64,000 bases of DNA, from NCBI GenBank assembly GCA_947627625.1, contig CANQWR010000001.1, positions 62,001 through 126,000 on the forward strand. Direction: 5' to 3'. Origin of the DNA: an uncultured Ruminococcus sp. Its GTDB lineage: Bacteria > Bacillota > Clostridia > Oscillospirales > Ruminococcaceae. The translations under genes and the position numbers were made by a program. Below are positions 1,772 to 53,805 of this stretch, in pieces (the stretch's first letter is position 1; each line of letters opens with the position of its first letter). The notes beneath the pieces were generated by a model. That model ran no database searches. It saw nothing but the letters and a program-made list of their open reading frames with translations, and was not told the origin of the DNA.

Positions 1772-1990
1772 GAATTAAATCGATAGAATAATTATGGGGG
1801 GTTCGGGGGGATGCTTCCCCCCGACGGGGGTTTGGGGGCAGAGCCCCCAATGGGGGTTCAGGGGGCAACGCCCCCTGCCTCCTGTCGTTCTAAACTAAAA
1901 AATATTAAATCTCTAAAAAAATATAATTTTAATAAAATTATTTTTTGGGGGAAGAATCCCCTCGCCCCCATGATGGGCTACTGTTTTAAT
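1772..1990 (+). repeat. Composite intergenic repeat, copy 1 (A + B + inverted A end)
   Basis: This fills most of the 343-bp gap 1759-2101. Module A (about 1794-1893) has three hairpins: GGGGGGATGCTTCCCCCC, GGGGGCAGAGCCCCC and GGGGGCAACGCCCCC. It is followed by module B, an AT-rich inverted repeat at about 1913-1950. The right end (about 1947-1991) is the A left end in inverse orientation: its reverse complement reads GAATTAAAACAGTAG then CATGGGGG, against GAATTAAATCGATAG then TTATGGGGG on the left. The copy therefore has imperfect inverted ends of about 28 bp. No protein is supported here; the remaining 1991-2101 is AT-rich. Confidence 0.88.
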
Positions 1991-2101
1991 TCTGTGCAAA
2001 CAATTTCCGCTTATAACAGGACATTTTGTGAGAAAAATATAGTTATAATAAAATAAAAATATAATTATTATAATAAAAATATATCGGGAGATGTTTTGTA
2101 T

Positions 2102-2266
2102 ATGGCACAAGATCACGACAAAAAAAGCAGTCTGAATGCCCTGTGGAACAAGTTCACGGCTACGGGTTCGGTGGCGGATTATCTCGCTTATTCTGCTCTC
2201 AGAGGTGAAAATTATGACGATAGTGGACGGAATAGTCCTGAAAGAGCGTACTGTAGGGGAACATGA
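2102..2266 (+). CDS. yqzL: YqzL family small protein
   Basis: A 54-residue reading frame starting MAQDHDKKSSLNALWNKF and containing ATGSVADYLAYSALRG. The LWxxFxxTGSVxDYL core and the position between era and recO match the YqzL family (about 45-55 residues, function unknown). GGGAG precedes the ATG at about 2094. The last 53 bp overlap the recO start in another frame; the recO ribosome binding site lies inside yqzL, which implies translational coupling. Confidence 0.8.
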   Translation: MAQDHDKKSSLNALWNKFTATGSVADYLAYSALRGENYDDSGRNSPERAYCRGT

Positions 2267-2975
2267 CAAATTTGTTGACATTCTCACAAGGGATAGCGGA
2301 GTTGTGGAGGCTGTCGTCAGGGGAGTCAAAAAAATAAACTCAAAGACGGCAAGCTCTTCACAGCTCTTTGCCTATTCACGTTTCTGTCTGCAAAGCCGTG
2401 GAAAATATATTTACATAAACAGTGCCGAACCTGTACACATTTTTTACAAGCTGAGAAATTCCCTGTCGAAAGTCTCCCTCGCCTGCTATTTTTCGGACGT
2501 TGTGAGATACTGCGTGCAGGAGAACACCGACAGCGAAAATGTCCTGAGACTTCTGCTTAATACGCTTTATTTTCTTGAAAACGACAGGCGTGGTGAGGCT
2601 ATGCTGAAAAGCATATTTGAGGTGCGGTTTATGGCGGAGACAGGTTTTATGCCCGATATTCTCGCCTGTCACAGGTGCGGACGCTTTGAGCCCGAGGAAC
2701 TTTTTATAGGCACTTCCGACGGCGTTTTTTACTGTAAAGACTGCTTTTCGGGTGAGAGTGAGAATTTTATGAAAGTAAATGCGGGTGTCCTGTCGGCAAT
2801 CAGACACATAGTTTTTTCGGAGTTTGAAAAGCTGTATAACTTCCGTGTCTCGGAGAGGACACAGAAAAGTCTCTCGGATTTTTCGGAGAGATACATTCTC
2901 AGCCGTACGGAGAGAAGTTTCAGAACTCTCGATTTTTACAAATCACTAATTACTTCAAAAGGGAATTTAATATGA
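2214..2975 (+). CDS. recO: DNA repair protein RecO
   Basis: A 253-residue RecO. The N-terminal OB fold begins MTIVDGIVLKERTVGEHDKF. A C-terminal zinc site is visible as CHRCGR then YCKDC (four Cys), as in Gram-positive RecO. It acts in the RecFOR pathway, annealing strands and loading RecA on SSB-coated DNA. I chose the ATG at 2214 because AGAGGTGA lies 6 bases upstream and the product then begins like the family; the longer frame from 2136 has no family similarity. The stop overlaps mutS2 (ATGA). Confidence 0.94.
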   Translation: MTIVDGIVLKERTVGEHDKFVDILTRDSGVVEAVVRGVKKINSKTASSSQLFAYSRFCLQSRGKYIYINSAEPVHIFYKLRNSLSKVSLACYFSDVVRYCVQENTDSENVLRLLLNTLYFLENDRRGEAMLKSIFEVRFMAETGFMPDILACHRCGRFEPEELFIGTSDGVFYCKDCFSGESENFMKVNAGVLSAIRHIVFSEFEKLYNFRVSERTQKSLSDFSERYILSRTERSFRTLDFYKSLITSKGNLI

Positions 2976-5365
2976 ACAAATATCTTAAAACACTTGAACT
3001 TGACAAAATTCTTGAGAGACTTGCACAGCACGCCTCAAATGACGAGACAAGAAAAATGGCACTTGCACTCCGTCCCGACAGTGACCTTGAAAGAGTGAGA
3101 TACGAAAATATAAAGACAAATCAGGCTCTTGAACTGTCTGTCAGGTTCGGAACGCCTCCTTTTACGGATTTTAAGGACATTTCCTCCGCCTGTGCAAGGG
3201 CGAAGTCGGGGGCAGTCCTTTCGCTCCGTGATTTGCTTGACATTGCGGGAATGCTCCGTCAGGTACACGACCTGCACAGGTGGTACGGCTCTTGTGAGAA
3301 CGTTGAGACCGAACTGAGCTATCTGTTTTCACAGCTTTCGCCTAACGACTATCTTCTTGACAGGCTTGAAAATTCGATAGTTTCCGAAAACGAGATAGCC
3401 GATTCTGCAAGTGCGGAACTTGCTACTATAAGAAGAAAAATAAACAGGGCAGAAATGCACCTGAGAGACACTCTTGACAAGATGGTGAAAAACAGGACTA
3501 CTCAGCAGTATTTGCAGGAGACAAGTGTCACAATGAGGGACGGCAGATTTGTACTTCCTGTAAAATCGGAGTACAGAAATCAGGTCAGCGGTCTTGTGCA
3601 CGACACATCGTCAACGGGGCAGACCATTTTTATCGAACCTATAGCGGTAGTCGAAGCTAACAACGATATAAGAATACTACAAGGTCAGGAGCAGGACGAA
3701 ATTGAGAGGATAATCCGTCAGCTTTGCAGGGAGTGCGGAGATAATGCCGACAGTATCATTTCAAATTACAGGACTTGTGCGGAACTCGATCTGTATTTTG
3801 CAAAGGCGAATTTTGGTGCGGTCCTGCACTGCACAATGCCCGAAATAGCTGATGACGGTGTTATAGATCTCAAAAAAGCCCGCCATCCTCTTCTTGACAG
3901 GGAAAAGGCAGTTCCGATAGATATATCGCTCGGGAAGAGCTATCAGGCTTTGATCATAACAGGACCGAACACGGGCGGAAAGACTGTCGCACTGAAAACA
4001 ACAGGGCTTCTGTGTGCAATGACTATGTGCGGACTTCTTATCCCCGTTGCGGAGAGGAGCAGGATTTCGGTTTTCAGGCATATTCTTGCGGACATAGGTG
4101 ACAGCCAGAGTATTGAACAGAATCTGTCCACTTTTTCCGCACACACAAACAAGGTCATAGAAATCATAAATACAGCCGACAAAAATTCTCTGATTTTGCT
4201 TGACGAACTCGGTTCGGGTACTGATCCCGTGGAGGGTTCTGCACTTGCGGTTGCGGTCATAAACAGGCTTATTGACAGTCAGGCTAAACTCATGGTGACA
4301 ACACACTATCAGGAGTTAAAAGTTTTTGCTATAGACAGTCCGTATGCGGAAAATGCGTCCTGTGAGTTTGACGTGGAGAATTTCCGACCTACTTACAGAC
4401 TTATAACATGTTCTCCGGGAAAGTCAAACGCCTTTGCAATATCCGAAAATCTGGGAATGCCTGCGGACATAATCATTGACGCAAAATCAAGAGTTAGCCG
4501 TGAGAACAGCCGTCTTGAAGAGGTCATAGAGAAGCTGGAGACTGCGAGAATTGAACTTGAACGCACACGGGAGGAAGTGAGAAAACTTGAAGTCCTTGCA
4601 AGGGAACACGAGGAGGAACTCCGAAAAGAGCGTGAGAGACTTGAAAATTCAAAGGCGGACGAACTCGAAAAGGCGAGAATACGTGCTATGACTATCATTG
4701 AACAGACAAAAGCGGAGTCCAATGAGCTTATAGGCGAACTTGAAAAGCTGAGGCGTGAAAAGGAGAGAGAGTCTTTTTCAAAGGACGTTTCGGGCATGAA
4801 GTCAAAAATAAGGCAGAGTTTCAGGAGTATGTACGACACTGCAAACCCTCTTGACGTTGGCAGCGGATATGATGAGGACTATGTACTGCCGAGGGAACTC
4901 AAAAAGGGCGACAGGGTTTATGCGGTTGACCTTAAAAGAGAGGGAGTTGTCAGCGGAGAGCCCGACGGAAGCGGTTTTGTGATGGTACAGATGGGTTCAA
5001 TGAAAACCAAGCTGAACGTCTCACGGCTCAGGCTTGACGAGACACCTGTTAAAAAAGCTCCGACCGAAAAACGTCCCGTCAGGAGAAACACCGGAAAAGT
5101 AGGCGTAAAGACGGAGAGAAGGGGAAGTCTCGAACTGGACATAAGGGGCTGTACCTGTGATGACGGCGTATATCAGCTTGATTCGTTCATAGACAGTGCA
5201 GTGATGTCGCATATTTCGACTGTAACCGTCATTCACGGCAAGGGTACGGGGCAACTCCGCAAGGCGGTACATCAGAGACTTGCAAATCACCCGTCCGTCA
5301 AAAAATTCAGGCTTGGCGTTTTCGGTGAGGGCGAGGACGGCGTGACGATAGTTGAATTAAAATAA
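2972..5365 (+). CDS. mutS2: Endonuclease MutS2
   Basis: A 797-residue MutS2: N-terminal core and clamp, an ATPase domain with Walker A GPNTGGKT (about residues 331-338) and LILLDELGSGTDP, a long charged coiled coil (about 515-620), and a C-terminal Smr nuclease domain with LELDIRG and VIHGKGTGQLR. MutS2 acts on recombination intermediates and stalled or collided ribosomes rather than mismatch repair. Its ATG overlaps the recO stop by 4 bases. An A/T-only linker (5366-5405) follows, then the tRNA promoter. Confidence 0.96.
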   Translation: MNKYLKTLELDKILERLAQHASNDETRKMALALRPDSDLERVRYENIKTNQALELSVRFGTPPFTDFKDISSACARAKSGAVLSLRDLLDIAGMLRQVHDLHRWYGSCENVETELSYLFSQLSPNDYLLDRLENSIVSENEIADSASAELATIRRKINRAEMHLRDTLDKMVKNRTTQQYLQETSVTMRDGRFVLPVKSEYRNQVSGLVHDTSSTGQTIFIEPIAVVEANNDIRILQGQEQDEIERIIRQLCRECGDNADSIISNYRTCAELDLYFAKANFGAVLHCTMPEIADDGVIDLKKARHPLLDREKAVPIDISLGKSYQALIITGPNTGGKTVALKTTGLLCAMTMCGLLIPVAERSRISVFRHILADIGDSQSIEQNLSTFSAHTNKVIEIINTADKNSLILLDELGSGTDPVEGSALAVAVINRLIDSQAKLMVTTHYQELKVFAIDSPYAENASCEFDVENFRPTYRLITCSPGKSNAFAISENLGMPADIIIDAKSRVSRENSRLEEVIEKLETARIELERTREEVRKLEVLAREHEEELRKERERLENSKADELEKARIRAMTIIEQTKAESNELIGELEKLRREKERESFSKDVSGMKSKIRQSFRSMYDTANPLDVGSGYDEDYVLPRELKKGDRVYAVDLKREGVVSGEPDGSGFVMVQMGSMKTKLNVSRLRLDETPVKKAPTEKRPVRRNTGKVGVKTERRGSLELDIRGCTCDDGVYQLDSFIDSAVMSHISTVTVIHGKGTGQLRKAVHQRLANHPSVKKFRLGVFGEGEDGVTIVELK

Positions 5366-5418
5366 TATTAAAATAATAAATTAAAATATTAAAATAAATA
5401 AAATTTTTGGAAAACCCC

Positions 5419-5447
5419 TTGACAAATCGGAAATTATGTGTTATAAT
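5419..5447 (+). promoter_or_regulatory. Sigma-A promoter for tRNA-Leu
   Basis: A perfect consensus: TTGACA (5419-5424), 17-bp spacer, TATAAT (5442-5447), 13 bp ahead of the tRNA. This fits a strong constitutive stable-RNA promoter. Confidence 0.9.
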
Positions 5448-5460
5448 GGAATACGTTGAT

Positions 5461-5547
5461 GCGGATATGGCGGAATAGGCAGACGCGCATGGTTCAGGTC
5501 CATGTGAACGCAAGTTCATGCAGGTTCAACTCCTGTTATCCGCACCA
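5461..5547 (+). tRNA. tRNA-Leu (anticodon CAG)
   Basis: An 87-nt class II tRNA. The acceptor stem pairs GCGGATA with TATCCGC, with ACCA encoded at the 3' end (5544-5547). The anticodon stem CATGG/CCATG encloses TTCAGGT, giving anticodon CAG. The long variable arm is TGAAC-GCAA-GTTCA, and the T loop is TTCAACT. It reads CUG leucine codons. It stands alone between mutS2 and tyrA behind its own consensus promoter. Confidence 0.97.
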
Positions 5548-5586
5548 TGTATTTTAGTAAAAAAATAATAATATACACGCCCTGTA

Positions 5587-5615
5587 TTGACTTCTTTGCT
5601 GTAAAGTGGTATACT
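5587..5615 (+). promoter_or_regulatory. Sigma-A promoter for tyrA
   Basis: TTGACT (5587-5592), 17-bp spacer, TATACT (5610-5615), 40 bp before the tyrA ATG. Confidence 0.8.
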
Positions 5616-5654
5616 TTACTGCGGAAGATATGATTTTGAAAGGCGTGTTTTTTT

Positions 5655-6506
5655 ATGAATATACTCGTTGCAGGTCTTGGTCTGATAGGCGGTTCGATTT
5701 GTAAGGCTCTCAAAAAGTACACAGGTCACACCGTCACGGGCTTTGACATAAACCACGATATTGAGGAGTCCGCTATGCGTGACGTTGCTCTGGACAGCGT
5801 TTTTGACGGCAGTTTTTCGGGGCTTGACATTGTTATAACAGCACTTTTCCCCGATGCTTCCGAAAAATTTTTCCGTGAGAACATAGCGAAAATGGACAAA
5901 AATACTCTCCTGACGGACGTTTGCGGAATAAAGGGCGATTTTTCACGAAGAGTGAGAGAGCTTGCAGTCGGAAACGGTATGCGTTACATAGGCATTCACC
6001 CCATGGCGGGAAAGGAGTTCGGCGGTTATCACAACAGCACGCCGAACCTTTTCAGGGGTGCGAATTTTATTGTCACACCAACGGAGCAGGACAGTCGGGA
6101 GGACGTTGAAATCCTGAAAAATTTAGCTGTCGAACTCGGTGCGGGAAAGATAGTCGTGACCTCCCCCGACAACCACGACAAAATGATTGCCTACACCTCA
6201 CAGCTTGCACATATAGTCTCAAGTGCGTATGTAAAGAGTCCCGAATTACTGCTTGAATGCGGTTTCAGCGGGGGAAGTTTTCAGGACATGACCAGAATCG
6301 CCACTATGAACGAAAAAATGTGGACTGAACTTTTCATGCAGAACAGGGAAAATCTTCTGTTTGAACTTGACACTCTTCTCGAAAATCTCAGAAAGTACAG
6401 GGATGCACTCGAAAACAGCGATTATGAAACTATGTCGGGACTTATAGCGGAGGGCAGGAAACTCAAAGAGGACAACATAAGGCACAGGGTCGGACAGCCT
6501 AATTAA
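5655..6506 (+). CDS. tyrA: Prephenate dehydrogenase
   Basis: A 283-residue TyrA-type NAD(P)-dependent dehydrogenase converting prephenate to 4-hydroxyphenylpyruvate for tyrosine synthesis. The Rossmann motif GLGLIGGS begins at residue 7. The substrate region shows GIHPMAGKEFGG, with the catalytic His and the conserved HPMAGxE, and the C-terminal half includes TSQLAHIVSSA. No ACT or chorismate mutase domain is attached, so it is a single-function short form. It has its own promoter and converges on the pseudouridine synthase gene with a 16-bp gap. Confidence 0.92.
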   Translation: MNILVAGLGLIGGSICKALKKYTGHTVTGFDINHDIEESAMRDVALDSVFDGSFSGLDIVITALFPDASEKFFRENIAKMDKNTLLTDVCGIKGDFSRRVRELAVGNGMRYIGIHPMAGKEFGGYHNSTPNLFRGANFIVTPTEQDSREDVEILKNLAVELGAGKIVVTSPDNHDKMIAYTSQLAHIVSSAYVKSPELLLECGFSGGSFQDMTRIATMNEKMWTELFMQNRENLLFELDTLLENLRKYRDALENSDYETMSGLIAEGRKLKEDNIRHRVGQPN

Positions 6507-6522
6507 GATAGATTAAAATATT

Positions 6523-7467
6523 TTAATTAAAATATTTCTCAAACCCGTCGTCACATTTGATTTCAATATTGTTAAGATATTTAAGGGGAGAGTTTTCCCC
6601 GAATCTGAATTTCAGACTGCACGCACAGAGGGCTTGTGTGAAAACGCCGTGACGCTTGTTTGCGGATATATCGCCGTATTTTCCGTCACCGAGTACGGGA
6701 CAGCCAATGTGTGCGAGGTGAGCCCTTATCTGGTGGGTTCTGCCCGTGTAGAGCGTCACTTCAAGGAGATAAAGCCCCGATCTTTCTTTGAGAACTTTAT
6801 AGCCCGTCTTTATTTCCCTGAAACCGTCAAGAGGAGTGTCGGAGATTTTCACGATATTTCTGTTTTCGTCCTTGTGGTGGTAGGCGGTCATTATAGCTGA
6901 ATTTTCGGGGGGAGCGGAGACAGTTATACAGTGGTAGATTTTTTCTGTAAGACCGTTTTTTATTGCGGAGTTTATCTCACGGAGAGACTGGGCATTTTTT
7001 GCGGTGAGGACTATCCCCTCTGTGTTTCTGTCGAGACGGTTGCAGAGTGCAGGGGAAAAAGAGTTTTCCGAATCGGGGGAGTACTCACCCTTTTTATACA
7101 GGTACAGCTTTACACGGTCAATTAGGGTGTCGGAACTGCTTTGCTGATTGGAGTGGCAGTCGAGCCCTTTCGGCTTGCGGACTGCTATCAAATTTTCGTC
7201 CTCATAGACTATTTCGGGAATATTTCCCGCACCAAAAAAAACGGTGTCGGGAGACTTTTTGCCCGAAAGGTCATCGGGGACGTAAATTTTCACGGTGTCG
7301 CCCTCTTTGAGAATATCGGAGACGGAACAGCGTTTGCCGTTTATTTTTATGTCCTTTTTTCTTATGAGCCTGTACATCATACTCTTGGGCATTTCGGGCA
7401 TCGCTTTGAGGACAAACTTGTCAATTCGCTGTCCTGCGTCATTTTTACCTATAAAAAACTCTCTCAT
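6523..7467 (-). CDS. RluA family pseudouridine synthase
   Basis: A 314-residue RluA/RluC-type rRNA pseudouridine synthase. It has an N-terminal S4-like RNA-binding domain (GQRIDKFVLKAMPEMPKSMM) and a catalytic domain with NRLDRNTEGIVLTAK, where the HRLD signature is NRLD (Asp is the catalytic residue), and GRTHQIRAHLAHIG. The frame stays open upstream to 7737, but the ATG at 7467 is preceded by AAAGGAGTG and begins the S4 domain, so the 90-residue extension is rejected. The target uridine cannot be told from sequence. It is divergent from the GH25 gene. Confidence 0.92.
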   Translation of the reverse strand: MREFFIGKNDAGQRIDKFVLKAMPEMPKSMMYRLIRKKDIKINGKRCSVSDILKEGDTVKIYVPDDLSGKKSPDTVFFGAGNIPEIVYEDENLIAVRKPKGLDCHSNQQSSSDTLIDRVKLYLYKKGEYSPDSENSFSPALCNRLDRNTEGIVLTAKNAQSLREINSAIKNGLTEKIYHCITVSAPPENSAIMTAYHHKDENRNIVKISDTPLDGFREIKTGYKVLKERSGLYLLEVTLYTGRTHQIRAHLAHIGCPVLGDGKYGDISANKRHGVFTQALCACSLKFRFGENSPLKYLNNIEIKCDDGFEKYFN

Positions 7468-7579
7468 ATCAGGTACACTCCTTTTATGTATATATTCAAC
7501 AAAAAAAATATTTATTTCTGTGCATTTGTGACGAAAACCAAAGTTTTTAATTAAATAAAAAATAAATTTGTCTGAGGGG

Positions 7580-7608
7580 TTGAATTTATGCACGGTTTGT
7601 GTTATAAT
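7580..7608 (+). promoter_or_regulatory. Promoter for the GH25 gene
   Basis: TTGAAT (7580-7585), 17-bp spacer, TATAAT (7603-7608). It gives a leader of about 75 nt before the ATG at 7692. Confidence 0.75.
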
Positions 7609-7691
7609 GATTTTCGGATTGTAATAAATTTGTAATTTTTGTTTAAGATTTGTTTCGCAAGACCAATATTTCAAAAGAAGGGAAAATAATA

Positions 7692-9359: not shown

Positions 9360-9388
9360 ATCTCTTTCTTTGGAGAGTGAGGTGGAAC

Positions 9389-9430
9389 AAAAGCACATAC
9401 CGCAGATAATTTGGGTATGTGCTTTTGGTT
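9389..9430 (+). terminator. Rho-independent terminator after the GH25 gene
   Basis: A 13-bp stem (AAAAGCACATACC pairing with GGTATGTGCTTTT) with an 11-12 nt loop and a T-rich 3' arm, 30 bp after the stop. Confidence 0.85.
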
Positions 9431-9439
9431 ATAATGCGG

Positions 9440-9760
9440 GACGACAGGGGCTTTGTCTCAAAAAATAATTTTCTTAAAATTATATTTTTTTGGAATTTTA
9501 GTATTTTATTTTAGGACGATAAGGGGCAGGGGGCTTTGTCTCAAAAAATAGTTTTCTTAAAATTATATTTTTTTGGAAGTTTCTTTGATTTGCGGACTGT
9601 TGGGGACTTCTTGCAAATTTTAATTAGAACGACAAGGGGCAGGGGGCTTTGCCCCCTGAACCCCCATTGGGGGCTCTGCCCCCAAACCCCCGTCGGGGGG
9701 AAGAATCCCCCCGAACCCCCCATGACAATCTTCTACTGTTTTAATTTTGGGAGTCAAGGG
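9440..9760 (-). repeat. Composite intergenic repeat, copy 2 (inverse, two B modules + A)
   Basis: This occupies most of the 477-bp gap 9360-9836. Two B modules (inverted repeats at 9457-9494 and 9540-9577, about 83 bp apart) are followed by a full A module (about 9625-9723), all in the opposite orientation to copy 1. The A outer end CATG is followed by TACTGTTTTAATTTTGGG (about 9735-9750), as in other copies. The rest up to 9836 holds a degenerate GGGACAGCGTCCC hairpin and the addB ribosome binding site (AAAGGAG). Confidence 0.88.
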
Positions 9761-19349: not shown

Positions 19350-19640
19350 CCCAAAATTAAAACAGTAGAATTATCATGGGGGGTCTGGGGGGATACTTTC
19401 CCTCAGCGGGGGTTTGGGGGTGGAGCCCCTTGTGGGGGTTCAGGGGGCAAAGCCCCCTGCCCCTTATCGTTCTAATTAAAATACTAAATCTCCAAAAAAT
19501 ATAATTTTAAAAAAATTATTTTTTGGGAAAAGCCCCCTGCCTCTTGTCGTTCTAATTAAAATACTAAATTTCCAAAAAAATATAATTTTAAGAAAATTAT
19601 TTTTTGGGCAAAGCACCTGCCCCTAATCGTTCCCAATAAA
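19350..19640 (+). repeat. Composite intergenic repeat, copy 3 (A + two tandem B)
   Basis: This occupies the 495-bp gap 19303-19797. The left end CCAAAATTAAAACAGTAG then TTATCATGGGG starts at about 19350. A somewhat decayed A module runs to about 19475. Two tandem B units follow: each has CCTGCC, a CGTTCTAATTAAAATACTAAAT block and an inverted repeat (19492-19527 and 19572-19608), 80 bp apart. The remainder (19641-19797) is AT-rich with a TATAAT at 19748-19753 that may be the htrA -10 box; no convincing -35 is seen. Confidence 0.87.
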
Positions 19641-19797
19641 AAATCTTCCGAAAAAATTTCCAAAAACTTACACAAATTATAAACGCTATTGGTAAAACTA
19701 TTCTACAATTTTTCTATGGGCTATCATGAATTTATCACAAAAACGGGTATAATATTTTATAGATTTTAACGAGTCTATAGAAAGTGAGGATTGTTTC

Positions 19798-26437: not shown

Positions 26438-26454
26438 AAAATTTCTTGTTTCCA

Positions 26455-26615
26455 TCACAGGGGGTTCGGGGGATACGTCCCCCCGACGGGGGTCTGGGGG
26501 CAGAGCCCCCTGCCCCTTATCATTCTAAAAGGGGTTTGGAGGCGGAGCCCCCAACAGTGCGGGAGACAACTGCCCCTAATCTTTCTAACGGGGGCTTGGG
26601 AGTGAAGTCCTCAGT
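26455..26615 (+). repeat. Degenerate composite repeat, copy 4
   Basis: Shortened A-type pieces include GGGGGTTCGGGGGATACG, GTCTGGGGGCAGAGCCCCC with CTGCCCCTTATCATTCTAA, and two further decayed GGAGGCGGAGCCCCC-type pieces. They lie in the 487-bp gap 26438-26924; the rest of that gap holds the rplS promoter and leader. Confidence 0.75.
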
Positions 26616-27407: not shown

Positions 27408-28139
27408 GTGGACGAGAATGAAAAGTCCGATGTCCTTGACGAGGAAGCGAAAGATACTCAGGAGACCGCAGAAGATGAAGATGAGGAGGACGAGGACTCA
27501 GGCGAAAAGGCACGGATAAGTTTCACAGACTTCATAGAAATTGTCGAGTCAACACTAATTACCATATTTGTGATAGTTATGATTTTCACGTATCTCCTGC
27601 ACCCTGTAAATATTGTGGGACACTCCATGTACCCCACTCTCAACAACTACCCTGACGACAAGAGTTCCGACAAAGTTTTCATGTCAACTGTCTACTTCGG
27701 GATAGACTACGGTGACATACTTGTAATAGACAACCACGAGACACATCTGATTGACGAAAACGGACAGGCTTACGTCCCCGACGATGTCACTCCGCTCAAC
27801 GAGTGTATAATAAAGAGAGTTATAGCGACAGGCGGACAGACTATAGATATAAAGGACAATCAGGTCATAGTGGACGGTGAAGTCCTTGAAGAACCCTACA
27901 TTGCAACAGGTTCGACTACTTATGACCTTGGTGCTTTTGACGGACAGTATCCGTTTACCGTTCCCGAGGGGTACTATTTTGTAATGGGCGACAACAGAAA
28001 TCACTCCTCCGACAGCCGTGATGCTAAAGTCGGACTTGTCAGCGAGAGTCAGGTTTACGGAAAGGCAATTGTGAGATACTCACCGATAGAGAGATTTCAT
28101 ATTTTAACTAATTCGTGGAAAGAGTCCGCAAATGACTGA
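27408..28139 (+). CDS. lepB: Signal peptidase I (first of two tandem copies)
   Basis: A 243-residue type I signal peptidase. A long acidic N-terminal cytoplasmic tail is followed by one membrane segment (about 52-68). Catalytic Ser lies in GHSMYPTL, Lys in IIKRVIATGG, and box E is MGDNRNHSSDSR. It cleaves signal peptides outside the membrane. The GTG at 27408 is favoured because AAAGGCGG lies 7 bases upstream; the ATG at 27390 has no site and directly follows TATAAT. It overlaps the second copy by 8 bp. Confidence 0.9.
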   Translation: MDENEKSDVLDEEAKDTQETAEDEDEEDEDSGEKARISFTDFIEIVESTLITIFVIVMIFTYLLHPVNIVGHSMYPTLNNYPDDKSSDKVFMSTVYFGIDYGDILVIDNHETHLIDENGQAYVPDDVTPLNECIIKRVIATGGQTIDIKDNQVIVDGEVLEEPYIATGSTTYDLGAFDGQYPFTVPEGYYFVMGDNRNHSSDSRDAKVGLVSESQVYGKAIVRYSPIERFHILTNSWKESAND

Positions 28140-28719
28140 TTCCGCAGGGAAGTCCAACTCAAAATTTTCAAGATTTTCGGAATTTACAGAGACACTCATC
28201 ATATCAATTTTCATTGCAGTAATGATTTTCACCTATATATTCAGTGTCGTGACGGTAAAGGGAGACTCCATGAGAGAAACTCTCTGTTCGGGCGACAGGG
28301 TTTTTGTCAATATGCTGTCGAGAGATTTTGCACAGGGCGACATAGTCATTATAAACGCCGAGCGTTCTTTTACTCTTGACGACAGCGGAAATCTGACCGA
28401 AAACAGGGGAATAGGTGAGACAATAGTCAAGCGTGTTATAGCTTCTGGCGGACAGTCCGTTGACATAGATTTCACAAGGGGGACTGTCCGTGTGGACGGT
28501 GTTGTCCTTGACGAAAAATATCTTGAAAACGGTCTGACACACATGGACGGCGGTGCTTTTACGGGACACTACCCCGTGACCGTCCCCGATGGATATTATT
28601 TTGTAATGGGTGACAACAGGAGCGGTTCAAAGGACAGCCGTTCGGCGGAGATAGGTTTTATCTCGGAGGACAGCATAGTCGGAGAGGTGATGTTTGTACT
28701 TTTCAGACCACACGAGTGA
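28132..28719 (+). CDS. lepB: Signal peptidase I (second tandem copy)
   Basis: A 195-residue paralogue of the preceding protein: a short N terminus, membrane segment (about 20-40), GDSMRETL with the catalytic Ser, IVKRVIASGG with the catalytic Lys, and MGDNRSGSKDSR. Both copies keep the same insert beginning near a DDSGN or DENGQ block, so they arose by local duplication (inference). Its ATG overlaps the first copy's stop. Two active signal peptidases may divide substrates. Confidence 0.93.
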   Translation: MTDSAGKSNSKFSRFSEFTETLIISIFIAVMIFTYIFSVVTVKGDSMRETLCSGDRVFVNMLSRDFAQGDIVIINAERSFTLDDSGNLTENRGIGETIVKRVIASGGQSVDIDFTRGTVRVDGVVLDEKYLENGLTHMDGGAFTGHYPVTVPDGYYFVMGDNRSGSKDSRSAEIGFISEDSIVGEVMFVLFRPHE

Positions 28720-46092: not shown

Positions 46093-46623
46093 TTAGTCAA
46101 GAACTATTGAGAAGTCCGACGGGACAGTCGCATCTTCATAGCTGTTGACCTTGCTTTCCGATTTGTCAGAGTGGTTGAAACCGCTTATTTTATTATTGCC
46201 GTTTTCCTCTTTGTTTTCATGGTACTGTTCAAGCACGGATTTTGTCTCAGTCTCGGTCTCTATTCCGGGAATATACTGTTCAACTATTTCACCGTTTTCG
46301 TCTGTCACGGTGACGACATTGACGACAGTTCCGTCGGGATAGACTGCACCGACAACGTTTCCCTCCTCGTCGTACACATACTGCAAACTCTGTTCGGCGG
46401 ACGTGGTTTCCTCCTCGGCAGAGACCTGATTTTCGGAATTATTTTTCCGAGCGTCACCATTTTCGGCAGAGGGGGTCTGCTTTACATATTCGGGAGTACG
46501 CAGAGGAGGAGTATTATTTTTGATTTTTGCGTCCTCGGTGCAACTTTTTCCCGCCATAATGACGAGCAAACCTGCTATGACCGCCATAGCGAGCGAGGCA
46601 ATTCTCATCTTTTCCAAAGCCAA
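46093..46623 (-). CDS. Hypothetical N-terminally anchored protein
   Basis: A 176-residue protein: a hydrophobic segment SLAMAVIAGLLVIMAG (about residues 10-25) followed by CTE, then a hydrophilic Asn/Glu/Thr/Ser-rich domain. That domain contains YVYDEEGNVVGAVYPDGTVV, a short beta-rich block. The GKSC before the Cys does not fit a lipobox, so a membrane anchor or signal peptide is more likely. A TTG at 46623 has AGGA at suitable spacing; the ATG at 46608 is 19 bases from any site. I recognise no family. It heads the ppiB-nfo-asnS-asnA run behind a good promoter. Confidence 0.7.
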   Translation of the reverse strand: MALEKMRIASLAMAVIAGLLVIMAGKSCTEDAKIKNNTPPLRTPEYVKQTPSAENGDARKNNSENQVSAEEETTSAEQSLQYVYDEEGNVVGAVYPDGTVVNVVTVTDENGEIVEQYIPGIETETETKSVLEQYHENKEENGNNKISGFNHSDKSESKVNSYEDATVPSDFSIVLD

Positions 46624-46653
46624 TCAACCTTTCCTGATTTATCAGATAGAAAT

Positions 46654-46682
46654 ATTATAAACCATGCCGAAAAAAAAGTCAA
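46654..46682 (-). promoter_or_regulatory. Promoter for the hypothetical-ppiB-nfo-asnS-asnA run
   Basis: On the minus strand TTGACT (46677-46682), 17-bp spacer, TATAAT (46654-46659), about 30 bp before the TTG start. Confidence 0.85.
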
Positions 46683-46736
46683 GAGTTTATTATATTTTTA
46701 TTGCTTTGGTTTTTGGGACTGTGTGGGGGGAGACAC

Positions 46737-46940
46737 TGTCTTTCGGTTCACCAAAATTAAAAAAGTGGGCTATCATGGGGAGTCCCCCGTTCAGGGAGCA
46801 AAGCCCCCTGCCCTTATCGTTCTCTTTTAATCGTTCACCCTGATATTTTCTTTTGTGGGAATAATCATGGGGGGTGGGGGGTGACCCCCGTTCAGGGATT
46901 TAGGGGGCGGAAGCCCCCTGCCCCTTATCGTTCCCAAATA
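46737..46940 (+). repeat. Composite repeat, copy 5 (two shortened A modules)
   Basis: This occupies most of the gap 46624-46960 (337 bp) together with the promoter above. It holds two internally deleted A modules. One starts CCAAAATTAAAAAAGTGG then TATCATGGGG and ends CCCTTATCGTTCT (to about 46822). The other starts GTGGGAATAATCATGGGG and ends CCCCTTATCGTTC (about 46856-46934). Both keep the first and last segments but lack the middle hairpin. Confidence 0.82.
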
Positions 46941-46960
46941 AAAAGTCCAAAAAATTAAAT

Positions 46961-48253
46961 TTATTCTCCTGATTTTATTTCAACAGCTCCCACGGGTCTT
47001 ATATTCAGAATTTGACAGCTGTTTTCGCCAAAAACGGCGTTCATTTCATCGGCGTAATATTCGGCGAGATAAGTCGGCACAAACGCCTGAACCGCTCCCG
47101 CAAAGCCGTTTCCGTGGACTCTTACCGCACCGCTCCCGCCAAGCCTTCTCTTACTGAGCATAATTGCAAGCGGAATTTGCTGATTTTCGGGGTTTTTGGA
47201 CGAGTAGAGATTCTGGAGCATTATTGCAGACGATTCGCCCGATTCGTTCATAAGACGGAAAAATTCCTCCGTGTCACCCACTTCAAGAGCTTCCGCCTGA
47301 GCAGTCACACGTCTGTTTTCGGCAAAGAAGTGTGCAGTCCTGAGAATAGCCCTGTCGGAACAGGAGCGTCTCAGTTCGGGAAGTCGGAAATAAAATTCGT
47401 CCTCATCGGCATCACGGAGAGTTTCCCTGCCCAAAGCTGTCGCAACAGAACGCATTTCTTCAGAGATAGATATGTACTCCTCACTGAAATCTGTATCTGT
47501 ACTCTTTGTGTCGGTGATACAGAGGGAGTAGCCCGATTCGGAGAAGTCAAACCTGACAGGCTCTATACTTGGATTTGACGGATTGTAGAAGTCAATGCAG
47601 ACAAATCCTCCCACCGAACACACCATCTGATTCATTAAACTTGTCGGCTTGCCGAAGTAGACGTTTTCCGCAAACTGGGCAATTCTCGCTCTCTCTTCTG
47701 CACTTGATTCACCATTGTTAAAAAGATTGTCAATTATCAGAGTTATCAGCACTTCAAAGGCGGACGAGGACGACAGTCCGCAGCCGCTGTTTATCTCCGA
47801 GACAGCATAGACGTTAAAGCCCTTTACGTCTATTCCCGACTGTATAAATGCAGATGCAATTCCCCTTATCAGTGACGCAGATGTACCCTTTTCGGAGTCG
47901 TCTATATCGAGTTTGTCAAGGGATATTTCGTCAGAGCGATAGCCCTCCGACCTCACTCTTATCACGTTGTCGTCATTGGGGGAGGCGAATGCGATTATGT
48001 CGAGATTTACAGCCGAGACGAGTACACAGCCGTGCTGACGGTCTGTGTGGTTTCCGCCGACTTCCGTCCTTGCGGGTGACGAAAATATAAATACTTCACC
48101 GTTTTCGGGGTAGAGTTTTGAAAATTTTTCGGCACAGCTCATATATCTGACTTTCTGCCTGAGCAGTTCTTTTTCGGACTTTCCGTAAAGAGTCCTCATC
48201 TGAGTGTCGAAACTGCCGTTTGATATACCGTTTATAAATTCCTGAATAAGCAT
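46961..48253 (-). CDS. Galactokinase-like GHMP family protein (atypical active site)
   Basis: A 430-residue GHMP kinase-fold protein closest to galactokinases. Motif 1 reads SPARTEVGGNHTDRQHG; in galactokinases this is GRxNLIGEHTDYN, so the sugar-binding Glu is Asn (N68). Motif 2 is GCGLSSSSAFE (ATP loop, intact) and motif 3 is HGNGFAGAVQAF. The catalytic segment, normally CGxMDQ, reads TSLMNQM, so the catalytic Asp is Asn (N208). ATP binding seems kept, while galactose phosphorylation is doubtful; a regulator or a kinase with other chemistry is possible. GGAGA precedes the ATG. No galT or galE lies nearby. Confidence 0.8.
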   Translation of the reverse strand: MLIQEFINGISNGSFDTQMRTLYGKSEKELLRQKVRYMSCAEKFSKLYPENGEVFIFSSPARTEVGGNHTDRQHGCVLVSAVNLDIIAFASPNDDNVIRVRSEGYRSDEISLDKLDIDDSEKGTSASLIRGIASAFIQSGIDVKGFNVYAVSEINSGCGLSSSSAFEVLITLIIDNLFNNGESSAEERARIAQFAENVYFGKPTSLMNQMVCSVGGFVCIDFYNPSNPSIEPVRFDFSESGYSLCITDTKSTDTDFSEEYISISEEMRSVATALGRETLRDADEDEFYFRLPELRRSCSDRAILRTAHFFAENRRVTAQAEALEVGDTEEFFRLMNESGESSAIMLQNLYSSKNPENQQIPLAIMLSKRRLGGSGAVRVHGNGFAGAVQAFVPTYLAEYYADEMNAVFGENSCQILNIRPVGAVEIKSGE

Positions 48254-48290
48254 TAAAAATTCTCCGTTCTTTAATTTTTGAAAAGCAAAC

Positions 48291-48735
48291 GTCTGCCTTA
48301 CGGCATTGGGATTTGGGGGGCTTTGCCCCCCAAGCCCCCCACCAAAGGGGGAAACCCCCTTTGGAAACCCGTGATTAAATATTTTTAGTTTTGCGACTAT
48401 TCAAGTTTATTGGAGCCGAGAGTGTCTCCTCCGTGGGAATAATCATGGGGGGTTCGGGGGGATTCTTCCCCCCGACGTGGGTTTGGGGGCAGAACCCCCA
48501 ATGGGGGTTCAGGGGGCGAAGCCCCCTGCCCCTAATCGTTCTAACGGGGGGTGGGAGGTATCTCCTCTGTGGGAATAATCATGGGGGTCTGGGGCGGGGT
48601 ATGGGGTGTCCCCATTTTCAAATCTCCCCCCAGCGGGGTCAAGGGTCAGAGCCCCCAATGGGGGTTCAGGGGGCAAAGCCCCCTGCCCCTAATCGTTCTA
48701 ACGGGGGTTTGGTGGCGAAGCCCCAAATGAATCGT
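48291..48735 (+). repeat. Composite repeat, copy 6 (C + A + rearranged A)
   Basis: This lies in the 698-bp gap 48254-48951. Module C (48291-48408) has a GGGGGGCTTTGCCCCCC hairpin, then CCTTTGGAAACCCGTGATTA and GTTTTGCGACTATTCAAGTTT-type sequence. A full A module follows (about 48433-48545). A second, rearranged A follows at about 48565-48702, with another GGTATGGGGTGTCCCC hairpin inserted. Both A units begin GTGGGAATAATCATGGGG. Confidence 0.87.
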
Positions 48736-48951
48736 TTGCTTCTCTTATTATAAACTATTTTCCGAAAAAAATCTACAGTTTTTGGAAAATTTTTGTAAAG
48801 AATTTATGCACAGCGACAGAAATAGGGCGGTCCGAATTATTTTTGGAATTTTTAAGACTATTTTAAGAAACGTAAACTATAATCATAACCGCAGTAAACA
48901 AAAAGCTGTTAAATGAAAATGAATAAATATTTTTGATAAGGAGTTTTAACT
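48736..48951 (+). promoter_or_regulatory. AT-rich upstream region of the dockerin gene
   Basis: This holds TTATGCACA at 48804-48812 and TATAAT at 48878-48883, without a well-spaced -35. AAGGAG lies 9 bases before the ATG at 48952. No other gene is seen here. Confidence 0.45.
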
Positions 48952-51900
48952 ATGAAAAAACTGAGCAGAAAAATAATCGCAGGAATTTCGTCGGTGTGCG
49001 TACTGACATCGGCAGTACCGTCAATCACGGGCGGTGTGTACGCCGCTGACACGGCAAAGACGGAGACTGTCTATGGTGACACAAATCTTGACGGTGAAGT
49101 CACAATTGCCGACTCGGTCGCAATCCTCCAATACCTCGCAAATTCGGACGAATATGGTCTCTCGGCACAGGCTCTTGACAACGCTGATGTTGAGCTGAGG
49201 GGAAACGGTGTCAACACAAGCGACGCACTCGCAATACAGAAACTTGATGCGAAAGTTATAGAGACACTCCCCGAGTCGTGGGCTGACGGCGGACAGACGG
49301 GTACAGGCACTACAACAGGCGGTTCGGGAACTGCCACAACTACAACAGATTCGGACACTCCACAGGCTGATATAACGTACATTCACCTTGCTGACGGAAA
49401 GACGACAGTGGACGGCAACAACGCTACGGTGTCGGGAGACGTTGTGACTATAATCCATTCGGGAACTTACTACCTTGACGGCACTCTCTCGGACGGTCAG
49501 ATAAAAGTGAGTGTCCCCGACGAAACTGTTGACGCTGAAACAGTGAAAATTTATCTCAACGGTGTGAATATAACGGGAAAGTCCGCACCTGCTATATATG
49601 TAGAAAACGCTGAAAACACTTCCATAAACCTTGTTGACGGCACGGAAAATAAACTCTCTGACGGCGATACTGCCTATTCGGGAGACTGGCTTGAATGTGC
49701 GGTAATCGAAGCAAAGGACGATATAACAATAAAAGGCGGTACAGAGGGTACAGGCACCCTCAACATAACTGCAAATACACAAGATGGCATTGTCTGCAAC
49801 AATGATATTAAATTCACAGGCGGTATCACGACAATAACTACTCTCAACACTGTTGACGAAAATAACGCTGTAAAGGGCAAGAAGTCCGTGACTGTAAAAG
49901 ACGGTACTCTCAACATTGAAGCAGAGGGTGACGGAATTAAGTCGAGCAAGGGAAATGTAGCGGTTCAGGGCGGTCTGCTGAACATAAAAGCAGGTAACGA
50001 CGCAATACAGGCGGAGACTACTATAGACATTTCTGGCGGTACTGTAATTGCAGGCGGTGACGAGGGTCTGACTTCCGTGACGGGTACTAACATAACAGGC
50101 GGTACGGTAATAGCTACTGCAACGGACGAACAGACCGATTTAACACTCATGTCGGGAACTACACAGGGTACAATGCTCCTGAACTGCATTGAGTCCTCCG
50201 AGACAGACGGTTGTTGGAAAAAGGCTGAATCCATCACAACGGGAGACATAAAAGCGTACAAGTGGATGAAGAAGTACAGATATGTAATTCTCAGTGACGC
50301 AAGTATAAAGTCGGGAAGCAAGTACACACTCACGAACCAGTCAAGCGGTAATTCCGTACAGCACAGCGGTGGAGCGGAGTTTTCACAGACAGACGTTGTG
50401 ACGGTCTACAATGAAGTGAATCCCGCAGGCGTTTCGGGTTCAACAGGTGGAAACACCGACACCCCGACAGGTGCAAACGCTATAGCACTTTCGGGTACTT
50501 CAATAAGCTCTTCTGCTGACGGAGTTACGGTAAAAGACGGTGTAGCGACTATTTCAAAGGCGGGAGTTTATGAAGTTTCAGGTGAGGCAAAGAATGTCCA
50601 GATAGAAGTAAACGTTGACAAGACTACATATCCCGATGCTGTTGTTGAACTTGACTTTGTTGGTGCGGACATCTCAAACGACACGACTGCACCTATATAT
50701 GTATCTTCAATAGGTAACGAAGTGCAGATAGTCGCAAAGAGCGGCACGGAGAACGCTATTTCGGACGGCACTTCCCACACGCAGACTTACACCGATTCGG
50801 ACGGCAATACAAACACCGTTGAGGGTGCAGTCTTTGCCCGTGATGATATAAAATTCAAGGGTACGGGAAATCTCACGATAAACGGCAACACGGACGACGC
50901 TGTGGTATGCAAAAATGATATAAAGATATACAACGGCAATATAACGGTGAACGCTGTCAATGACGGCATAAGGGGCAAGGACAGCGTTATAATAGGCAAT
51001 GACGAAAAAGCTGACGGTTCTGCTGTGGACTACAGCACGCTCAAACTCACTGTCAACACAAAGAGCGGTGACGGCATAAAGTCCACTTCCGACGAGGAGA
51101 GTACCGCCGAAAAAGCAGAGGGAGAAGTTGAAATAAACGGCGGAACTGTCAATATAAATTCCTATGCGGACGGCATTCAGGCAGAACAGGAGTTTGTCAT
51201 GAACGGCGGAGACGTTACAATATATACCTATGAGGGTTCAACCTTTGGCGGTACGGTAGGCGGTTCAACAGGCGGAAACCAGTTCGGCGGATTTGGCGGA
51301 GGTTTCGGCGGTGGAATGCAGGAGGGCAATTCCAACAAGTCTGAAATTTCTGCAAAGGGAATAAAAGCTGTCGGAGTTTACGACTCAACGGGTACAACAT
51401 GGCAGGACGGCGGAGACATTGAAATTCTCGGCGGAAATCTGAAGATAGACTCCTCCGACGACTCAATTCACGCAGGCGGTGAAATTGAAATTGAGGGAGG
51501 AAAGCTGTTGCTCGCCTCGGCAGACGATGCTGTCCACTCCGACCACGACCTTACTCTCGGTGAAGAGGGCGGTGCGAACAGTGATTTTGAAATTTACGTC
51601 ACAAAGTGCTATGAGGGCGTAGAGGGAAATAATATTTACCAGTACAGCGGTACTGTAGTGGTAAAATCGGACGATGACGGCTATAACGCTGCCGGCGGTG
51701 CTGATAACTCAGGCTCAGGAAATAACATGGGCTGGGGACAAGGCGGGTTCGGCGGAGGAATGGGCGGTTCAAGCGGAAATATCCTCCAAATTGACGGCGG
51801 TGTCGTAATTGTGCAGTCCGCAAGCGGAGACCATGACGGCATAGACTCCAACGGAAACGTGAACATCACAGGCGGTATCGTAATCGCAAACGGTCAGGAG

Positions 51901-52257
51901 ACTATTGACTGCGGAGACGGCTACAGCGAGAATATAACAGGCGGTACTATCGTTGAGTGTTCGTCACAGGGAGCAGGTTCAATTCAGGCGGGTACACAGT
52001 TCACAGTCGCTGACGAATCGGGAAATGTGATTGTCTCGTTCACAACTATGCAGGCTATGGGTTCACCGTCGATGAATAACACAAGTCTCAAATGCTACAC
52101 AGGCGGTACGATTTCGGGCGGTGCTGACCTGATCACCACCGATGACTCTATGGAAGTCTACACAAACGGCACTATTTCGGGCGGTACTGCCGTATCAGCG
52201 GGAACTTCAAGCGGAAATCAGGGCGGTTTCGGAGGTTTCGGCGGTAGAAGTTTCTGA
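48952..52257 (+). CDS. Secreted N-terminal dockerin protein with duplicated Cthe_2159-like (DUF4353) beta-helix domains
   Basis: A 1101-residue exported protein. The signal peptide (1 to about 31, VYA-A) is followed at once by a type I dockerin (about 40-105). Its first calcium loop is DTNLDGEVTIAD; the second, DVELRGNGVNTSD, is one residue longer with Arg at a ligand position, so it is degenerate. A Thr/Gly linker leads to two DUF4353-type regions (about 124-420 and 505-1090) full of short beta-helix rungs such as GDGIKS, DAIQAE, DDAVVC and DDSIHAGG. The second has Gly-rich inserts (GGFGGGFGGGM and similar). Cthe_2159, the founding member, binds polygalacturonate and cellulose. The dockerin would attach the protein to a cohesin scaffold, giving a cellulosome-borne carbohydrate-binding or processing part (inference). 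Confidence 0.87.
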   Translation: MKKLSRKIIAGISSVCVLTSAVPSITGGVYAADTAKTETVYGDTNLDGEVTIADSVAILQYLANSDEYGLSAQALDNADVELRGNGVNTSDALAIQKLDAKVIETLPESWADGGQTGTGTTTGGSGTATTTTDSDTPQADITYIHLADGKTTVDGNNATVSGDVVTIIHSGTYYLDGTLSDGQIKVSVPDETVDAETVKIYLNGVNITGKSAPAIYVENAENTSINLVDGTENKLSDGDTAYSGDWLECAVIEAKDDITIKGGTEGTGTLNITANTQDGIVCNNDIKFTGGITTITTLNTVDENNAVKGKKSVTVKDGTLNIEAEGDGIKSSKGNVAVQGGLLNIKAGNDAIQAETTIDISGGTVIAGGDEGLTSVTGTNITGGTVIATATDEQTDLTLMSGTTQGTMLLNCIESSETDGCWKKAESITTGDIKAYKWMKKYRYVILSDASIKSGSKYTLTNQSSGNSVQHSGGAEFSQTDVVTVYNEVNPAGVSGSTGGNTDTPTGANAIALSGTSISSSADGVTVKDGVATISKAGVYEVSGEAKNVQIEVNVDKTTYPDAVVELDFVGADISNDTTAPIYVSSIGNEVQIVAKSGTENAISDGTSHTQTYTDSDGNTNTVEGAVFARDDIKFKGTGNLTINGNTDDAVVCKNDIKIYNGNITVNAVNDGIRGKDSVIIGNDEKADGSAVDYSTLKLTVNTKSGDGIKSTSDEESTAEKAEGEVEINGGTVNINSYADGIQAEQEFVMNGGDVTIYTYEGSTFGGTVGGSTGGNQFGGFGGGFGGGMQEGNSNKSEISAKGIKAVGVYDSTGTTWQDGGDIEILGGNLKIDSSDDSIHAGGEIEIEGGKLLLASADDAVHSDHDLTLGEEGGANSDFEIYVTKCYEGVEGNNIYQYSGTVVVKSDDDGYNAAGGADNSGSGNNMGWGQGGFGGGMGGSSGNILQIDGGVVIVQSASGDHDGIDSNGNVNITGGIVIANGQETIDCGDGYSENITGGTIVECSSQGAGSIQAGTQFTVADESGNVIVSFTTMQAMGSPSMNNTSLKCYTGGTISGGADLITTDDSMEVYTNGTISGGTAVSAGTSSGNQGGFGGFGGRSF

Positions 52258-52261
52258 AATT

Positions 52262-52660
52262 ATTAAGGCTTACGCCTTTGGTGTTGGGGGGACTCCGCCC
52301 TCCACCCCCGTCAAAATGGGACTCCTCCTTTGGAAACCCGTGATTAAATATTTTTGGTTTTGCGACTATTCAAGTTTTTGTTTATCATGGGAGTGTCTCC
52401 CCTGTGGAATAATCATGGGGGGTTCGGGGGGATGCTTCCCCCCGACGGGGGTCCAGGGGGCGAAGCCCCTGCCTCTTATCGTTCAAATATTTAGAGGGAA
52501 CTGCATCCGTTCGACTATTATTTTGATAGAAAAATTTCCAAAAAAATATAATTTTAAGAAAATTATTTTTTGGGCAAAGCCCCCTGCCCCTAATCGTTCT
52601 AATTAAATTTCAGAGGGCAACACCCCTGTCTTCTATCGTTCTAATAGGGGACAACTTCCC
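52262..52660 (+). repeat. Composite repeat, copy 7 (C + A + B + decayed A)
   Basis: This sits in the 574-bp gap 52258-52831. Module C (52262-52377) is nearly identical to copy 6 over its last 51 bp (one mismatch). An A module follows (about 52414-52485), then AT sequence and a B inverted repeat (52537-52573), and decayed A ends with TATCGTTCTAA at about 52632-52650. The rest of the gap holds a terminator and the spoIIGA promoter. Confidence 0.86.
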
Positions 52661-52694
52661 CCTGAACGTCTTATAAAAAAAGTCCACTAAAAAG

Positions 52695-52720
52695 CCACAG
52701 GTTTCAAAGCCTGTGGATTT
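52695..52720 (+). terminator. Intrinsic terminator upstream of spoIIGA
   Basis: CCACAGG-TTTCAAAG-CCTGTGG followed by A and T8. It would end transcripts from the dockerin gene and its repeat before spoIIGA. Confidence 0.9.
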
Positions 52721-52740
52721 TTTTTGCCTGTCTCCAGAAT

Positions 52741-52773
52741 CTGACATATTTTGCACAAGCTGTGCATTATAAT
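52741..52773 (+). promoter_or_regulatory. Wide-spacer promoter and palindrome for spoIIGA
   Basis: CTGACA (52741-52746) and TATAAT (52768-52773) are 21 bp apart, not 17. The spacer contains the palindrome TGCAC-AAGCT-GTGCA (52752-52766). B. subtilis spoIIG has a similarly over-spaced sigma-A promoter that needs Spo0A; TCTGACA (reverse TGTCAGA) here resembles a 0A box loosely. Spo0A control is an inference. Confidence 0.55.
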
Positions 52774-52831
52774 TAAACAGGACGGGTGAGGGACATATAG
52801 TCCCAAGCCCCGATTAAAAAGGAGGTGTTCT

Positions 52832-53644
52832 GTGCGGACCATATATATAGATGTCCTGATAGTGCTGAATATCTACATAAACTACTTTCTGCTCCTCACA
52901 GTTTCGCAGTTTACCCACACGCCGCTCCGCAAGAGGAGGTGTATTCTTGCATCGGCTTACGGGAGTCTGTTCTCACTACTCATACTTGCACCGCAGTTAA
53001 ATACTTTTTTGAATTTATTTATAAAGACGGTCGCTTGCGTGAGTATAACAGCGGTTGCGTTCGGGGTGAAAAGTCTGAAAGGACTGTTAAAAAATACGCT
53101 TGTGTTTCTGGGAGTGAATTTCATATTTGCAGGTGCAGTCTATGCGGTTTACTCCTGTTTTGAACCCGAATTTCTCTACACGTCAAATTTTGGGGTCTAC
53201 ATTGACTTCTCAATGACGGTCCTGATAATTACAACTGCACTTCTCTATTTTCTGATAAGTATACTGAAATATTTCTTTTCGGGGAGAGATATTCAAGAAT
53301 GTACAGTAATTGTCCGCTATGACGGCAGGGAGAGAGTTATGAACGGACTTGCCGACACGGGAAATTCGCTAAGAGACTATTTTACGGGAGTGCCTGTAAT
53401 GATATGCAGTCGGGAGGACTTTTCCTCTTTAACAGGCTACAGCGGAGACGGTGACAGTGTGCCGAGGGGGTTCAGACTGTTGCCCTGTTCGACCGTCTCA
53501 GCAGATGGATTGATACCTGTTTTTCGTCCTGACGAGGTGACAATCAGGAACAATCTGACGGGCGAGACAAAAAAGGTGAACGTCATGCTTGGTGCGGGGA
53601 ACAGCAACGGTAGAGCAATATTCAATCCCGAGATATTGCTTTGA
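52832..53644 (+). CDS. spoIIGA: Sporulation sigma-E factor-processing peptidase SpoIIGA
   Basis: A 270-residue membrane aspartic protease. Five hydrophobic segments span residues 5-145, followed by a cytoplasmic protease half with the single DTG motif NGLADTGNSL (D175) and a final GAGNSNGRAIFNPEILL region. It cleaves pro-sigma-E in the mother cell during sporulation. The start is GTG with AGGAGGTG ideally placed. sigE follows but is 205 bp away because a repeat element lies between them. Confidence 0.93.
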   Translation: MRTIYIDVLIVLNIYINYFLLLTVSQFTHTPLRKRRCILASAYGSLFSLLILAPQLNTFLNLFIKTVACVSITAVAFGVKSLKGLLKNTLVFLGVNFIFAGAVYAVYSCFEPEFLYTSNFGVYIDFSMTVLIITTALLYFLISILKYFFSGRDIQECTVIVRYDGRERVMNGLADTGNSLRDYFTGVPVMICSREDFSSLTGYSGDGDSVPRGFRLLPCSTVSADGLIPVFRPDEVTIRNNLTGETKKVNVMLGAGNSNGRAIFNPEILL

Positions 53645-53675
53645 TTTGGAACGGGGGAGCGTTATCCTCAAGCTC

Positions 53676-53805
53676 CCAAAATCAGAACAGTGGACTATCA
53701 TGGGGGGTTCGGGGGGATTCTTCCCCCCGACGGGGGTTTGGGGGCAGAGCCCCCAATGGGGGTTCAGGGGGCGAAGCCCCCTGCCCCTCATCGTTCTAAT
53801 AAAAA
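53676..53805 (+). repeat. Composite repeat, copy 8 (complete A module) between spoIIGA and sigE
   Basis: The cleanest A copy: left end CCCAAAATCAGAACAGTGG then CTATCATGGGG, three intact hairpins (GGGGGGATTCTTCCCCCC, GGGGGCAGAGCCCCC, GGGGGCGAAGCCCCC) and right end CCCCTCATCGTTCTAA. No B module follows. Confidence 0.92.

Follow-up and report, generated by a model that had tools for sequence, protein, structure and literature searches.

The composite interspersed hairpin repeat of this uncultured Ruminococcus genome is a new family, found in a single species among the genomes searched. Its core is a non-coding unit of ~100 bp in which three G/C hairpins are separated by short G-rich spacers, with limits at ATCATGGGG (start) and ATCGTTCTAA (end). 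Interchangeable modules flank the core. On the left there are arms of several types, among them La (AAATTAAAACAGTAGA) and Lb (TGTGGGA). Further modules are PG and the tail modules, which combine an A/T hairpin with a third-hairpin end and stand in tandem at a spacing of 80-83 bp. The window (the whole stretch of 64,000 nucleotides analysed, C1:62001-126000) holds ten whole or partial cores across eight gaps, two of those gaps with two cores each (Table 1). An earlier note on this DNA had described the repeat in eight gaps and in both orientations, with three hairpins, a start at ATCATGGGG and an end at CCCCTTATCGTTCTAA. Profile matches and sequence confirmed all eight places and this make-up, with one core on the minus strand and the others on the plus strand. 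A tail module without a core gave the profile match at 52572-52606.

Table 1. Features of the hairpin repeat in the window. Core coordinates are from nhmmer profile matches and equal the C1 coordinate minus 62000.
Feature	Position	Strand	Basis
Core copy, era-recO gap	1788..1898	+	nhmmer match
A/T-rich hairpin module 3' of core	1916..1950 (end approximate)	+	repeat family D5
Two A/T-hairpin tail modules, ~83 bp spacing	9447..9582	-	repeat family D6 and sequence
Core copy, inverse, gap before addB	9618..9729	-	profile match and sequence; gene domains checked
Left arm La (CCCAAAATTAAAACAGTAGA)	19350..19369	+	sequence; left-arm comparison
Core copy	19370..19481	+	profile match and sequence
Two A/T-hairpin and third-hairpin-end tail modules, 80-bp spacing	19494..19641	+	families D5, D8
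Partial core, DUF2344-rplS gap	26453..26530	+	profile match, sequence, Pfam of neighbours
Partial core	46778..46827	+	profile match and sequence
Partial core	46869..46941	+	profile match and sequence
PG module (G/C hairpin, CCAAAGG hairpin, A/T arm)	48308..48408	+	family D9 and sequence
Core copy with left arm Lb (GTGGGA)	48439..48544	+	profile match and sequence
Core copy, long first-hairpin allele, left arm Lb	48575..48701	+	profile match and sequence
PG module	52290..52377	+	family D9 and sequence
Core copy, one hairpin short	52409..52490	+	profile match and sequence
A/T-hairpin and third-hairpin-end tail module	52541..52607	+	family D5, profile match
Core copy, spoIIGA-sigE gap	53694..53805	+	profile match and sequence

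A pattern for the third hairpin, scanned with up to 3 mismatches tolerated, found 352 sites in the host genome, whose assembly comprises 38 contigs with 2,041,636 bases and is 87% complete, and none when reversed as a control. At the same tolerance the pattern was absent from the other 124 genus genomes searched, and in a phylum sample of 398 genomes just one of the 397 others carried a single site, at 3 mismatches. The looser hairpin GGGGGCNNNGCCCCC occurs at 797 host sites versus 0 for its reversed pattern, which excludes chance as the origin. Among 59 other genus genomes it was missing from 55 and present in four (11 sites each in G005 and G017, 3 in G069 and 1 in G031). A blastn search of the core against 59 relatives gave short weak matches alone, in 3 of them, and the core was found neither among the plasmids or phages searched nor, as an exact pattern, in viral contigs. 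A profile scan of 781,514 bp (38% of the genome) returned 202 matches, 155 above 40 bits and 107 near-full, from which about 280 near-full copies are extrapolated genome-wide. The family extends far beyond the window (352 third-hairpin sites; 107 near-full copies in the 38% sample). The earlier note had named beforehand two outcomes that would speak against it, and neither came about; copies exist beyond the window, and no described family was matched in the searches. Copies also lie at contig starts (the first 60 bases of C7 and C8; C1:1-70). Assembly is therefore probably interrupted by the repeat, whose copy number may be underestimated.

The claim that the repeat avoids genes holds over the sample: with genes called by a simple caller (653 genes, 85.7% coding), 15 of 18,871 element bases fell inside called genes. 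Copies occupy 131 of 455 gaps (90/347 co-directional, 24/56 divergent and 17/52 convergent). They show no clear orientation to genes, with 41 same-sense and 59 antisense copies in co-directional gaps (binomial p 0.089). For such placement, a terminator or leader role is a poorer fit than insertions that are tolerated in the spaces between genes. An intrinsic terminator was rejected as a candidate, with no terminator-like site in the copies of the two gaps scanned and no fixed orientation to genes. In one copy left arm La reads TTGACC, 16 bp and TAGAAT; a promoter there was also set aside, as promoter-like sites with 3 mismatches or fewer were present in 10/121 copies versus 57/1210 shuffles.

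Left arms, like the hairpin alleles, are reassorted from copy to copy. Among the 27 copies that fit the allele-combination pattern within 400 kb, all four combinations were seen for La/Lb with the first-hairpin allele, and again for the first-hairpin allele with the third-loop allele. The first and second hairpins are incompletely reassorted, the combination of first-hairpin cg with second-hairpin caa being absent from these 27 copies. Mean identity is 0.78-0.81 for the core, 0.50 for arm La and 0.53 for arm Lb. The other left flanks (44 of the 107 near-full copies) have a mean identity of 0.22 versus a shuffled baseline of 0.18, and these 44 copies have ATCATGGGG and ATCGTT as common borders, beyond which their flanks are unrelated. 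Since the core is more alike than its arms and these left flanks lie near baseline, we regard the core as a unit with its own borders.

Hairpin arms change together. The three hairpins are paired in 98.1% of cells in an alignment of 41 of 46 near-full copies, which leaves out five with a long first hairpin and in which four copies, off by one column in hairpin 1, were scored as unpaired there. Both sides of a pair had changed in 46 cells; shuffles gave 13.4 (sd 2.9) and every slid structure 0. Of five covariation measures, two fail to rise above shuffles, namely pairs changed on both sides (5 versus 4.7) and pair types (12 versus 12.7). Of 101 second hairpins, 98 have matching arms where independence would give 39.8; for the first hairpin the count is 113 of 122 (56.6 expected). 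These counts are no tally of independent events, since there is only a handful of distinct hairpin alleles.

As single-stranded DNA the core is predicted to fold into exactly three hairpins (z -3.8). As RNA its predicted fold reaches -66 kcal/mol (z -3.1), and the minimum-energy structure pairs the G- and C-runs differently from the three hairpins. The earlier note had counted six G-runs of at least five in the core; this is accurate for two of the five copies checked, and the other three have 5, 4 and 3. The competition between hairpins and G-quadruplexes that it proposed is predicted for three of five window copies folded as RNA, where allowing quadruplexes lowers the energy; in two it leaves the energy unchanged.

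Gaps that carry a copy in the host are mostly short in relatives at the two orthologous sites compared. The spoIIGA-sigE gap measures 205 bp with its copy in the host versus 1-43 bp in 29 of 30 relatives; in the thirtieth it is 203 bp, with unrelated sequence at the start and no G-runs above 2. In all, 109 congener genomes gave a spoIIGA match; the set used here comprises the 29 best loci plus L055, which may duplicate a species among the 29. The era-recO gap is 377 bp in the host versus about 63 bp in G025 and G084, the nearest relatives by both era and recO. It was measurable at 21 of 29 loci (the other eight gave no usable gap), being 50-156 bp in 18 relatives and 287-391 bp in three, where it holds other, partly hairpin-rich sequence. 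SpoIIGA of the relatives is at most 58% identical to that of the host, a distance at which exact insertion points are unreadable from gap comparison.

Rare G/C two-hairpin units occur in the stretches examined of G069, G017, G031 and G005. They share a layout and similar spacers with the host core (C(C)GGGGTC, an AAGGG stem, GGGGGT, and AGGGGGC...GCCCCCT). They differ in lying inside longer elements with other hairpins and outside the 3-mismatch pattern. A cross-species alignment did not respect the stems. Common descent of the host core and the congener units is likely. Other hairpin families were seen in the genus. G025 (L227-L229) has a separate dispersed family of long hairpins (TTG[stem]...[stem]CAAG; arms GGGGGGCTTGGGGGGATAAAGCCGCC). 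Its inner stems change between copies and stay complementary, in a search that required five pairs and is therefore biased. Longer composite elements in G017 and G069 (L126-L133) carry CAGT-[stem]-[loop]-[stem]-CGG hairpins, which also vary by copy and stay complementary. The two-hairpin units and the G025 family suggest a rapid turnover of hairpin families within the genus.

The earlier note saw no transposase in the window, and a Pfam scan of 50 window proteins agrees; four of these matched no family, and the scan did not include the gene cut by the window end. The genome-wide transposase search covered Y1 families. The RAYT-like (Y1 HUH) transposase that the earlier note suggested looking for was not found in the host assembly: Y1_Tnp (PF01797) had no match, and an alignment search with ten congener RAYTs gave a best E of 0.249, interrupted by a stop. 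A RAYT driver in the host genome was dropped on these two results. No protein pairs with at least 70% identity were detected among the 653 genes of the 38% sample, and no multi-copy IS genes, which assemblies of this sort can lose. In the genus, Y1 matches are missing from 80 of 120 genomes. The congener RAYT-like genes (20 loci, L147-L166) lie directly before gyrB-like genes in 10 cases, before thrS-like genes in 7 and before others in 3, with one gyrB and one thrS checked with Pfam; we take argH and argJ to be names for RAYT neighbours. Four of the congener RAYTs have NF047646 as best match (E 6.7e-15 to 2.3e-18), under its 80-bit cut-off. In the host, the slot between a RemA-like gene and gyrB is assembled; an inverted copy of the repeat lies there in place of a RAYT (L188:1228-1500). 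A target-duplication test (800 offset tests with 25 shuffles each) reached a best z of 3.4 over 29 copies and 4.5 over 74 copies, values that arm linkage can also cause. Neither excision nor presence/absence differences among strains were seen. An outer stem of G-run and C-run is predicted, and the termini match poorly by eye.

We think it somewhat probable that this composite repeat family is a non-autonomous mobile element whose hairpin is read as single-stranded DNA and moved in trans by a putative enzyme. The hairpin would be exposed as single-stranded DNA and would be what the mover reads; the enzyme, acting in trans, would recognise and move it. Copies would arrive by insertion of the core, as the common borders with unrelated flanks (44/107) point to, and recombination between copies would keep the core alike while left arms drift. 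Mobilisation in trans, which we infer, was also the expectation of the earlier note. If this account is true, a small, otherwise IS-poor genome was colonised within one species' life. The coloniser would be non-coding and would lack the transposase by which REPs are explained in other genomes. The old question of how such repeats spread could then be put to a direct test by sequencing strains. Joint switching of the two arms of a hairpin offers a natural record of palindrome change. We also entertain, as a doubtful proposal, a class of mobile hairpin arrays needing no Y1/RAYT, in which each species has its own family and both arms of a stem are rewritten simultaneously through fold-back copying of the hairpin in single-stranded form. 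Hairpin alleles would then switch as a whole and new families would arise quickly. Fold-back copying of palindromes is an existing idea.

Three other explanations were weighed against a mobile element moved in trans. The repeat could be a relict of a RAYT/REP system, spread by a Y1 transposase that was then lost or lies in the unassembled part; we judge this unlikely. RAYT-like proteins do exist in the genus, mostly before gyrB-like or thrS-like genes, the gyrB slot of the host has a repeat copy in place of one, and at 87% completeness a RAYT may sit in the missing part of the assembly. PMC3733652 also reports that REPtrons are deletable while REPs remain. The motifs of the near-full copies argue against such a relict: no copy (0/107) has GTAG at its first-stem foot, 29/107 have it upstream of the first G-run at a distance of up to 25 nt, and the 20-nt tail has CGTC in 6/107 and CGTT in 88/107. 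The 80 genus genomes lacking a Y1 match mean that absence is common, and the Y1-bearing G069, G031 and G035 show 0, 0 and 1 tandem hairpin pairs (100 kb each) versus 36 and 15 in the host.

Improbable in our view is an origin without transposition, in which recombination, replication slippage and fold-back copying would by themselves have spread the arrays and made them alike. Mosaic reassortment and the tandem tail modules 80-83 bp apart are consistent with such processes, as are the paired arm changes, which one fold-back copying event would give. Homologous recombination requires a first copy at each site, so the presence of the core in 131 of 455 sample gaps counts against this account, as do common borders amid unrelated flanks in 44 of the 107 near-full copies. 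We hold it very unlikely that the repeat is a regulatory RNA or DNA element under selection, acting as a terminator, mRNA-end stabiliser or protein-binding site. The predicted folds are very stable in both RNA and DNA and the arms covary, as might be expected of one, but the RNA minimum-energy fold is not the three hairpins and no Rfam family was matched at gathering score. The orientation bias is no stronger than p 0.089, copies are no rarer in divergent gaps than in the others, and the element is absent from the gaps of relatives. Inside the copies of the two gaps scanned there was no terminator-like site, and promoter-like left arms hardly exceed shuffles.

The earlier note knew of no description of this family, and none was matched in Rfam, plasmid/phage or literature searches. 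The sole Rfam match at gathering score over the window is a tRNA; in 53600-53920, six matches up to E 1 all fall under gathering (e.g., RAGATH-28, 24.3 of 45.3 bits). No paper describing the repeat family was found in the literature searched, which lay mostly outside subscription journals. By analogy, the repeat appears to work most like BOX, BIME or REPIN elements. PMC3049150 describes BOX of Streptococcus pneumoniae as built of boxA, a variable number of boxB, and boxC, and reports terminal inverted repeats and target duplications, neither of which was established for the host repeat. On that account, BOX and the host repeat are alike in their ordered modules with variable internal repeats, in being intergenic and structured, in being found mostly in one species and its nearest kin, and in having no clear mover of their own. 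In contrast to BOX, compared here by description alone, the host repeat has a G/C-rich core and interchangeable hairpin alleles.

BIME/REP and REPIN elements, as described in PMC3733652 and PMC3116915, share with the host repeat high-copy extragenic palindromes in mosaics. Compensatory changes on both hairpin sides are reported for REPINs in PMC3116915, and both-sided hairpin changes are seen in the host repeat as well. Unlike REP/REPIN, the host repeat is without GTAG at the stem foot, has CGTC in few tails (6/107) and comes with no RAYT that could be found. It has three unlike hairpins in fixed order in place of a symmetric doublet. The earlier reading as REP- or MITE-like is supported in part, as to a dispersed, non-coding, high-copy element that occurs in both orientations and whose gaps are short in relatives. 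The support does not extend to REP proper, given the missing GTAG at the first-stem foot (0/107) and the lack of a Y1/RAYT match in the assembly. Of the features of a MITE, neither a target duplication nor clear terminal inverted repeats could be established. Elsewhere in the window (27930-28619), two signal peptidase I-like genes form an adjacent pair with a 68-bp stretch at 81% identity, a local duplication.
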